From the NCBI GenBank assembly GCA_016234345.1, contig JACRFG010000034.1, positions 1 to 34,424 on the forward strand: 34,424 nt of DNA, in the 5' to 3' direction. Numbering within the stretch: position 1 is the stretch's first letter; each line of letters starts with the position of its first letter. Below, piece after piece: positions 1,411-4,195 of this stretch. This DNA comes from Candidatus Jorgensenbacteria bacterium. GTDB taxonomy: Bacteria > Patescibacteriota > Minisyncoccia > UBA6257 > GWB1-50-10. Made by a program: the position numbers and the translations under genes. The notes under the pieces were generated by a model. That model did not search any database. It was given only the letters and a program-made list of their open reading frames with translations, and was not told the DNA's origin.

Positions 1411-1419
1411 TGGTATAAT
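1411..1419 (+). promoter_or_regulatory. Extended -10 promoter set for a leaderless mRNA
   Basis: TGG-TATAAT: the TG at 1411-1412 is an extended -10 element and the consensus hexamer is at 1414-1419. The ATG follows after only 6 nt, so transcription should begin at or next to the start codon. An AAGGAGG at about 1393-1399 is too far upstream to serve as a Shine-Dalgarno site and would not be in the transcript. Confidence 0.65.
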
Positions 1420-1425
1420 ATACAT

Positions 1426-1830
1426 ATGGATCAAATTACTAATACGCCTTCAATCCCGGGCGAGACCTCTTTAAAATCCGCATGGTCGTGGGGAGCTTTT
1501 ATGTTCGATATACCATTTCTCATTGCAATTAAGAAATATGTCTGGCTTCTCTTTTATCTTCTGGCTTTTGTTCCAATCGTGAACGCCATATTTTTAATTA
1601 TCTTTAAAATAGTTATGGGAATGAAGGGCGCGGCGCTGGCTGCGCAGAGCCCTCAGTTTACAAACCAAGACGAATACAATGGTTTTATGAGAGCGCTAGA
1701 TCACGCAGGCAAAATTACATTCTTCGGCCTTATCGTTGTTTTTGTTTTGATTATCGGACTAGTACTTTTTGGATTCAAAACTTTCATCCCCTATCTACAA
1801 CCAAAAGTGCCTGGATTCATGACACAATAA
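1426..1830 (+). CDS. Small membrane protein with a W-x-W-G-A-F motif
   Basis: The start is the ATG at 1426. A longer in-frame ORF from a TTG at 1333 would read through a terminator and a promoter, so it is rejected. The 134-aa protein has a polar N-terminus, the segment SAWSWGAFMFDIPF, a strongly hydrophobic stretch at about residues 38-63, an amphipathic cytosolic or loop region (FTNQDEYNGFMRALDHAGK) and another membrane segment at about 97-118. The WSWGAF...MGMKG arrangement resembles small membrane proteins frequent in Patescibacteria that carry W-x-W-G-A-F and then G-x-K-G. The function is unknown. It is a single-gene unit bounded by a leaderless promoter and a terminator at 1861. Confidence 0.8.
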   Translation: MDQITNTPSIPGETSLKSAWSWGAFMFDIPFLIAIKKYVWLLFYLLAFVPIVNAIFLIIFKIVMGMKGAALAAQSPQFTNQDEYNGFMRALDHAGKITFFGLIVVFVLIIGLVLFGFKTFIPYLQPKVPGFMTQ

Positions 1831-3070: not shown

Positions 3071-3098
3071 AGCCGAGTCTTTGACTCGGCTTTTCATT
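3071..3098 (+). terminator. Rho-independent terminator directly upstream of infC
   Basis: A perfect 9-bp stem, AGCCGAGTC (3071-3079) with GACTCGGCT (3083-3091), has a TTT loop and a TTTCATTTA tail. It ends the BFN/GNAT-like operon and is only about 12 bp from the infC extended -10 element. Confidence 0.85.
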
Positions 3099-3110
3099 TA
3101 AAATTTGGTG

Positions 3111-3119
3111 TGTTATTAT
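3111..3119 (+). promoter_or_regulatory. Extended -10 promoter of infC
   Basis: TGT-TATTAT: TG at 3111-3112 and the hexamer at 3114-3119, followed by exactly 6 nt and then the ATC at 3126. The geometry is the same as at the gene at 1426. The best -35 candidate, TTTTCA (3091-3096), is 17 nt upstream and overlaps the terminator tail. Confidence 0.6.
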
Positions 3120-3125
3120 AGTAAT

Positions 3126-3626
3126 ATCCATTACCGAGTCAACAGCCAAATAACCGCTAAGGAGCTTAGGGTTCTCGACGAAAAAGGGGATAATCTCGAC
3201 GTACTATCTAGAGAAGCGGCGTTGCGCTTAGCCGAAGAGCGTCACGTTGATCTTATTGAAATCGCTCCGAACGCAAACCCGCCTGTCGCGCGTCTCATGA
3301 GTTTCGACAAATTCCGTTACCTCAGAGAAAAAGCCGAAAAGAAACAGCGCCATCTTCAAAAAACCAAAGAGATGAAGCATGTCCGTATTTCACCTCGAGC
3401 CGCCCAGAACGATCTTCAAATTAAAGCGAGTAAAGCCGATGATTTTTTGAAAGAAGGACACGGAGTTGAAATCAGTCTTTTTCTCCGCGGACGAGAAAAA
3501 GGCAATCGCGATTGGAATCTTAAAAAACTTAACGAGTTTCTAACAATGGTCAAGGTTCCGCATCACGTAACGCTCACTCCGAAATTTGTAGGTAAGGGAT
3601 TTATAGTACAGATAGCTAAAAAGTGA
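3126..3626 (+). CDS. infC: Translation initiation factor IF-3, probably starting at AUC on a leaderless mRNA
   Basis: IF3 binds the 30S subunit and discriminates against non-AUG start codons and wrong initiator tRNA. The protein carries the N-domain pattern YRVNSQITAKELRVLDEKGD, then AALRLAEERHVDLIEIAPNA and PPVARLMSFDKFRY, and the C-domain KEMKHVRISPRAAQNDLQIK, FLKEGHGVEISLFLRGREK and KFVGKGFIVQI. No ATG lies near the conserved N-terminus. The in-frame TTG and GTG at 3105 and 3108 lie upstream of or inside the -10 element. The ATC at 3126 gives a 166-aa protein starting (f)M-H-Y-R-V-N and lies 6 nt after the -10. Non-AUG infC starts (AUU in E. coli) allow autoregulation. AUC in a leaderless position here is inference. 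rpmI and rplT follow. Confidence 0.93.
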   Translation: MHYRVNSQITAKELRVLDEKGDNLDVLSREAALRLAEERHVDLIEIAPNANPPVARLMSFDKFRYLREKAEKKQRHLQKTKEMKHVRISPRAAQNDLQIKASKADDFLKEGHGVEISLFLRGREKGNRDWNLKKLNEFLTMVKVPHHVTLTPKFVGKGFIVQIAKK

Positions 3627-3633
3627 CGGACGG

Positions 3634-3661
3634 TTGAAAAAAATATAGAGCAGGGTATAAT
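3634..3661 (+). promoter_or_regulatory. Internal promoter for rpmI-rplT
   Basis: TTGAAA (3634-3639), a 16-nt spacer and TATAAT (3656-3661) lie between infC and rpmI. The expected start near 3668 gives a leader of about 13 nt before the rpmI ATG at 3681. The two ribosomal protein genes can therefore be transcribed independently of infC. Confidence 0.7.
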
Positions 3662-3680: not shown

Positions 3681-3854
3681 ATGGCTAAAAACAGTATCGA
3701 TCATCGTATCAAAACAACCAGAACAGGCAAGGTGCTTCGCAGAGCTATGGCGCTCGGCCACTCCCGTGGCAACAAAAGCAGCGTACAAATGCAAAGAAAA
3801 AAACGATCAAGAAATCTGTCGCTTTCCCATCTTATTACAAAAAGAGGCTTATGA
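3681..3854 (+). CDS. rpmI: 50S ribosomal protein bL35
   Basis: A short 57-aa gene between infC and rplT, the usual position in the infC-rpmI-rplT operon. The protein is very basic and reads MAKNSIDHRIKTTRTGKVLR, then RAMALGHSRGNKSSVQMQRK, with a KKRSRNLSLSH tail. The 'K.T.TGKVLRR.mg.gH.r..Ks..q.rrKkr' core is the bL35 pattern (family K-R-F-K-x-T-x-x-G-K). The stop codon overlaps the rplT start as ATGA, so the two are translationally coupled. It is shorter than the usual 64-66 aa, and the N-terminal consensus is weak (KNSIDHRIK instead of K-T-x-K-S-x-x-K-R-F-K), so the identification rests partly on context. Confidence 0.9.
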   Translation: MAKNSIDHRIKTTRTGKVLRRAMALGHSRGNKSSVQMQRKKRSRNLSLSHLITKRGL

Positions 3855-4195
3855 GCCGAGTAAAAAGGGGCATAATCGCCCACAAAAAACGCGAGCGTTT
3901 GCTCCGATATACAAAAGGATTCAAATGGAGCAGAAAATCAAAAGAACGGGCCGCTAAAGAAGCGCTTCTTCATGCTTGGAGCCGAGCTTTCGAAGGACGC
4001 AAAGAAAAGAAACGCGTATATCGAACGTTATGGAATACGCAAATTAATGCTGCCGTGAGGGCCGAAGGGCTAACATACAGCGTCTTCATAAAAAAGCTCA
4101 AGACTAAAAAAATAGTCTTGGACAGAAAAATATTGGCTGATTTAGCCAAAAATGAACCGGCGGTTTTCAAAAAAATAGTGGCTCTGGTCAAATAA
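3851..4195 (+). CDS. rplT: 50S ribosomal protein bL20
   Basis: A 114-aa basic protein essential for early assembly of the large subunit. Signature parts are MSRVKRGIIAHKKRERLLRY, TKGFKWSRKSKERAAKEALL, HAWSRAFEGRKEKKRVYRTL and WNTQINAAVRAEGLTYSVFI, then KILADLAKNEPAVFKKIVAL. The length is normal for the family. It overlaps rpmI by 4 nt (ATGA) and is followed within a few bases by a strong bidirectional terminator, so it is the last gene of this rightward block. In E. coli, L20 represses its own operon by binding mRNA. I did not find a recognisable copy of that mRNA structure here. Confidence 0.97.
   Translation: MSRVKRGIIAHKKRERLLRYTKGFKWSRKSKERAAKEALLHAWSRAFEGRKEKKRVYRTLWNTQINAAVRAEGLTYSVFIKKLKTKKIVLDRKILADLAKNEPAVFKKIVALVK

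Follow-up and report, generated by a model that had tools for sequence, protein, structure and literature searches.

The gene for initiation factor 3 (IF3), infC, in a Candidatus Jorgensenbacteria genome very probably starts at an AUC codon, and its transcript is quite probably leaderless or carries a leader of a few nucleotides (nt) at most. The likely overall explanation is that this leaderless AUC gene has been kept under repression by its own product after the lineage lost the anti-Shine-Dalgarno (anti-SD) sequence of its 16S rRNA.

The infC locus and its start codon

The window, which is the whole 34,424-nt stretch of DNA that was analysed, contains the following features in and around infC.

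3071..3095, + strand: intrinsic terminator that ends the GNAT gene upstream: 9-bp stem with a TTT loop, then a T-rich tail
3091..3096, + strand: weak -35 element TTTTCA, 17 nt from the -10 element and overlapping the terminator tail
3105..3110, + strand: TTG (3105) and GTG (3108), rejected as infC starts
3111..3119, + strand: extended -10 element TGT-TATTAT (TG at 3111-3112, TATTAT at 3114-3119)
3126..3128, + strand: proposed +1 (A3126) and AUC start codon of infC, a codon position at which ATC, ATT or ATA is conserved
3126..3626, + strand: infC, encoding both domains of IF3 (matches to PF05198, PF00707 and TIGR00168)
3634..3661, + strand: promoter of rpmI itself, TTGAAA-16-TATAAT, ahead of the ATG at 3681
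3681..3854, + strand: rpmI (bL35), ATG start, the downstream neighbour of infC, assigned from its position and its sequence MAKNSIDHRIKTTRTGKVLRR
3851..4195, + strand: rplT (bL20), ATG start (PF00453, E = 6e-32)

The product of infC contains both the N-terminal and the C-terminal domains of the IF3 family (PF05198, E = 1.3e-24, and PF00707, E = 1.6e-14, in Pfam), reaches 137 bits for TIGR00168 (NCBIfam; cut-off 60), and matches IF3 chains among solved structures. The closest named relatives by infC are Candidatus Jorgensenbacteria and other Patescibacteria. The gene is followed by rpmI and then by rplT; the identity of rpmI was assigned by reading, as its product had no Pfam match at E 0.001. 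An intrinsic terminator (stem at 3071-3091, -15 kcal/mol, z -6.0) closes the GNAT gene and isolates infC from upstream transcription, and infC therefore needs a promoter of its own.

The open frame that holds infC runs from 3105 to 3626. The initial annotation had claimed that no ATG exists near the IF3 N terminus, and this was borne out: the in-frame stop TAA at 3099-3101 leaves the frame open from 3102, the in-frame starts upstream are limited to TTG 3105 and GTG 3108, and the next ones downstream are TTG 3222 and ATG 3297, well within the conserved IF3 N-domain. TTG 3105 and GTG 3108, which had already been tied to the promoter, both lie in its spacer and are not conserved, and many relatives have a stop between that region and the IF3 core. 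If ATC 3126 were instead an internal isoleucine codon, translation would have to begin at one of these two codons, on a longer transcript made by read-through of the terminator. Both codons are in frame and the frame ahead of them is open, but they stand in a promoter spacer behind a strong terminator, the residues that they would add are not conserved, and L003, L004, L008, L112, L128 and other relatives have no ATG, GTG or TTG (NTG) to use, all of which makes this reading very improbable.

Among 114 non-redundant infC genes from the order and its near relatives, almost all have ATT, ATC or ATA (ATH; AUH in the mRNA) where the conserved core begins. In 59 of these genes the stretch from the upstream stop to the core contains no NTG, and 55 of the 59 have an ATH codon within three codons. 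In the five loci named above, and in others, it is a close upstream stop that leaves no NTG; in L003, the stop lies two codons ahead of ATA. The three codons also interchange, with at least 19 changes over 48 infC genes on the IF3 tree and at least 11 over 29 infC genes of the family to which the window's gene belongs. G was never reached in 11 third-base changes, for which the chance is about 1% if changes are spread evenly among bases, a rough figure in that C-T transitions are commoner. The control gene, rplT, has an ATG start in 70 of 72 loci of the same kind; rpmI was set aside as a control because the start of its alignment is ragged. When the start is assigned by the -10 rule, 29 of 30 genes in the own family begin with AUH and 1 of 30 with GUG. 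The window's gene has the attributes of the AUH-start class, in that AUH opens the conserved core and a usable NTG is absent, and this arrangement is conserved across most of the order.

Promoter geometry in the window and among relatives

ATC 3126 lies exactly 6 nt after TATTAT, at the coordinates originally given for it, and a promoter scan of the plus strand gave TTTTCA-17-TATTAT with the TG extension as the only candidate for infC, with a score of 9/12. Because 1.3 promoter-like sites are expected from shuffles of the region, this site is weak evidence alone, and it is conservation in the family, not the single site, that lifts the infC promoter above chance. TANNNT occurs exactly 6 nt before ATH in 25 of 35 own-family infC genes, whereas 2000 shuffles gave a mean of 1.15 and a maximum of 6. 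The number of sites expected in this one AT-rich region would by itself allow a -10-like hexamer to have arisen near ATC by chance, but the comparative counts contradict such an accident and leave it with next to no probability.

Twenty-seven own-family infC genes share a sigma-70 layout in which +1 coincides with the A of ATC, ATT or ATA in every case. The profile of these genes (n = 27) consists of a TTG-like, T-rich -35 element (T in 20/27 at -35 and in 21/27 at -34), a 17-nt spacer, an extension with T in 23/27 and G in 19/27, a TATTAT-like hexamer at -12 to -7, and a pyrimidine at -1 in 26/27, which sets a YR initiator on the ATH. Three loci (L131, L141 and L150) encode an N-terminal extension of 12 to 13 codons, and their first codon is ATC, again 6 nt after TA(C/G)TAT. 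Families f27 and f14 have the same layout with a spacing of 7 nt instead of 6. A -10 element 6 to 7 nt before the start codon is thus common to the orthologues, and conservation of AUC or AUU at that distance in related genomes, which had been suggested as a check, was found. The window's gene has no SD sequence before its AUH codon, and the same holds for 35 of the 36 own-family members. The spacing, the YR initiator, the stops that exclude NTG and the interchange of ATC, ATT and ATA together argue strongly for the AUC start and leaderless transcript that the initial annotation proposed.

The difference in spacing between the own family and families f27 and f14, and the apparent use in family f18 of a UUG located 3 nt further in, could also reflect a very short leader of 1 to 5 nt with a start point that varies, in which case AUC would be the first usable codon and not the exact 5' end. 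The spacing within the own family is nearly invariant, however, with the YR step placed precisely at ATH; such a leader, which would differ little in function from a leaderless transcript, is considered unlikely.

On the minus strand, a strong promoter-like sequence, TTGACT-16-TATAAT, faces the opposite way across the infC start (3115-3142) and may be a by-product of an AT-rich near-palindrome.

About 7 of 36 own-family genes do not have the pattern (L011, L015, L017, L018, L023, L027 and L028); from their sequences, L017, L023 and L028 probably start at UUG, L018 is likely to start at GUG, and L027 perhaps starts at AUG. In family f18 (L129, L132, L148, L153, L156, L159, L161, L167 and L173), a TTG (once ATG) located 3 nt past the ATH position is conserved in 9/9 members, and the ATH position turns to ACA or TAA in three of them; the likelier start in this family is therefore UUG with a leader of about 0 to 3 nt rather than AUH. 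Family f17 has kept ATH and family f26 has mostly ATT or TTG with no SD; most members of both have no -10 element at 6 nt. In most f26 and f21 members, infC has no SD and follows directly, in the same orientation, behind ssrA, the tmRNA gene (L123, L126, L130, L134, L136, L138, L143-L145, L149, L155, L166 and L181 in f26; L133, L140 and L162 in f21), as it does in L019 and L177 (f10) and in L244, L247 and L249. Behind ssrA, processing of the 3' end of tmRNA might generate the 5' end of infC.

Anti-SD loss and leaderless genes

The 16S rRNA 3' end of the own genome, which was located by pattern, reads GGATTAACTAAACTTAG (G000:C84:6909-6949, locus L327) and contains no CCUCC. Six own-family genomes have tails of the form ...GTGGATCAATTA... 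or similar in place of GGATCACCTCC, and the GGAUCAAUUAA-type tail is conserved in most of the order. Among the fully read 16S tails in the order (loci L288-L346), 56 of 57 contain no CCTCC, and a search of 244 order genomes found the CCTCC pattern in 1 and the same pattern without CCTCC in 85, the own genome included. The sole order tail with CCTCC (L296; G093:C18) has a helix 45 unlike all others, and its contig is probably contamination of that draft genome. In Patescibacteria outside the class, ACCTCC is kept in 54 of 54 phylum genomes with a match, and within the class the anti-SD state is mixed. From the sequence of the genome, the anti-SD has almost certainly been lost; since it is missing from the 16S rRNA of the order, the SD site is absent generally and not at infC alone. 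The own genome shares the two properties of the anti-SD-less class, with no CCUCC in its 16S tail and SD motifs hardly enriched before its genes.

The sample of start sites covered 406 kb of this genome (41 of 91 contigs of a 0.91-Mb draft, with crude open reading frame [ORF] calls). A strong -10 element lies 6 to 7 nt ahead of 6.7% of first ATGs versus 0.9% of inner ATGs, and SD-like motifs precede 12.7% versus 9.0%. These proportions indicate that leaderless genes are a real minority class in this genome, normally with ATG. AUH leaderless starts as a genome-wide habit were not supported: where a codon near an ORF start follows a strong -10 at 6 to 7 nt, ATG is enriched (32 instances), whereas ATT, ATC and ATA (14, 13 and 14) are at the level of TTT, AAT and AAA. 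The use of ATH is, as far as tested, special to infC. The gene at 1426, for which the same spacing as at infC had been claimed, does have TATAAT at 1414-1419 followed after 6 nt by ATG; it encodes a small membrane-protein-like product with no Pfam match and is likely a leaderless AUG gene (window 1414-1428).

An initiator tRNA with a CAU anticodon and C1xA72 is present, and no special initiator tRNA was seen in the 406 kb scanned. The anticodon stem of the initiator tRNA (L206:1521-1593, G000:C20) has A-U/G-C/G-C and not three G-C pairs. At L201:2600-2676 (G000:C15), ARAGORN also reports a CTA-anticodon tRNA under the label Pyl, possibly an amber-reading tRNA or a mis-call.

In a sample of the phylum, SD sequences precede ATH in 14 of 30 infC genes, and since infC genes with an SD ahead of AUH are spread across the phylum, AUH is probably ancestral. 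The simplest history would be that the ancestral gene was SD led with ATH, the anti-SD was lost, and infC turned leaderless while the non-AUG codon stayed, that codon thus appearing to have outlived SD initiation.

Proposed IF3 feedback and known systems

The identity of infC, its promoter geometry, the conservation of AUC, AUU or AUA and the loss of the anti-SD are all read from sequence; from them we infer the actual 5' end and initiation at AUC, and from Escherichia coli biochemistry the feedback. In the proposed mechanism, the extended -10 promoter of infC would set +1 at the A of AUC, and the resulting leaderless mRNA would open with AUC, which the ordinary initiator tRNA with its CAU anticodon would decode as fMet. 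SD-led initiation would be unavailable after the anti-SD loss, and the non-AUG codon would have been kept. When IF3 is plentiful, near-cognate AUC complexes would be destabilised and 70S ribosomes kept apart, and infC would be repressed; when IF3 is scarce, 70S ribosomes would accept the 5'-terminal AUC and more IF3 would be made.

In E. coli, IF3 destabilises AUU and AUC complexes and so represses its own gene (PMC5472188). Leaderless mRNAs start on 70S ribosomes; in E. coli they are inhibited by raised IF3 and enhanced in infC mutants whose start-codon choice is relaxed (PMC9031893). A leaderless AUC would therefore be expected to be doubly sensitive to IF3. By analogy with E. coli, repression of the infC mRNA by IF3 in this lineage seems reasonably probable. 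The main difficulty is that, according to PMC9031893 with reference to Van Etten and Janssen 1998, E. coli leaderless mRNAs require AUG, and the ribosomes of this lineage would therefore have to differ; they do differ from those of E. coli in the 16S tail.

The leaderless AUC could also be real with no feedback attached, as a weak AUH start retained from an SD-led ancestor, either for no reason beyond a low need for IF3 or because an A at +1 suits RNA polymerase. The SD-led AUH genes in the phylum sample fit such a retention, and promoters are known in general to prefer A at +1. Promoter strength alone, however, could set a low level of IF3, and the repeated exchange among ATT, ATC and ATA with almost no ATG suggests active avoidance of AUG, making retention without feedback a somewhat unlikely account. 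If IF3 feedback does operate as proposed, the ribosomes of this lineage can initiate at near-cognate codons of leaderless mRNAs, whereas those of E. coli reportedly do not; the IF3 level is sensed in two ways at the same time, by codon choice and by the availability of 70S ribosomes; the leader and the SD site are dispensable for feedback; and the near-cognate codon is a circuit part that evolution keeps. Gene callers limited to ATG, GTG and TTG would then put the start of IF3 in the wrong place throughout this group, here at TTG 3105 inside the promoter, and the order-wide anti-SD loss offers a natural system for initiation without SD pairing.

Non-AUG infC genes, leaderless genes and anti-SD loss are each known, and no paper combining them turned up in the literature open to search, which covers few subscription papers. 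Neither a leaderless AUU or AUC infC nor anti-SD loss in Patescibacteria was found in the open literature; prior mention of either is possible. That IF3 self-control moved, after the loss of SD and anti-SD, onto a leaderless mRNA with AUC, AUU or AUA as its first codon is a proposition that we hold to be evenly poised.

The closest known system is the autoregulation of E. coli infC, which likewise has a near-cognate AUH start (AUU) in the gene for IF3 and the same proposed effector, acting through start-codon discrimination (Butler 1986/1987 and Sacerdot 1996, as cited in PMC5472188); the infC of Streptomyces starts with ATC, as here. In E. coli the gene carries a leader and a strong SD (PMC1805508), whereas the gene described here probably has no leader, and both the SD and the 16S anti-SD are absent; the AUH infC genes of both E. 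coli and Bacillus subtilis have an SD in front of the codon, unlike that in the window. Leaderless genes in Deinococcus-Thermus (PMC12340547) and mycobacteria (PMC4633059) share the -10 geometry of 6 to 7 nt and the lack of a leader but use AUG or GUG, the starts typical of the leaderless class, in contrast to the AUC of the window and the AUU and AUA of its relatives. Streptomyces sigR, with a GTC start repressed by IF3 (PMC5472188), is likewise a case of a non-canonical codon under IF3 control, although its target is not IF3 itself and the text of PMC5472188 does not mention leaderless mRNA. The passages found in PMC6107199 describe 16S rRNA without an anti-SD in 128 taxa (Chryseobacterium, some Mycoplasma and Carsonella among them), with the same loss of CCUCC and SD motifs; here, the loss spans an entire order of Patescibacteria, which those passages do not mention.
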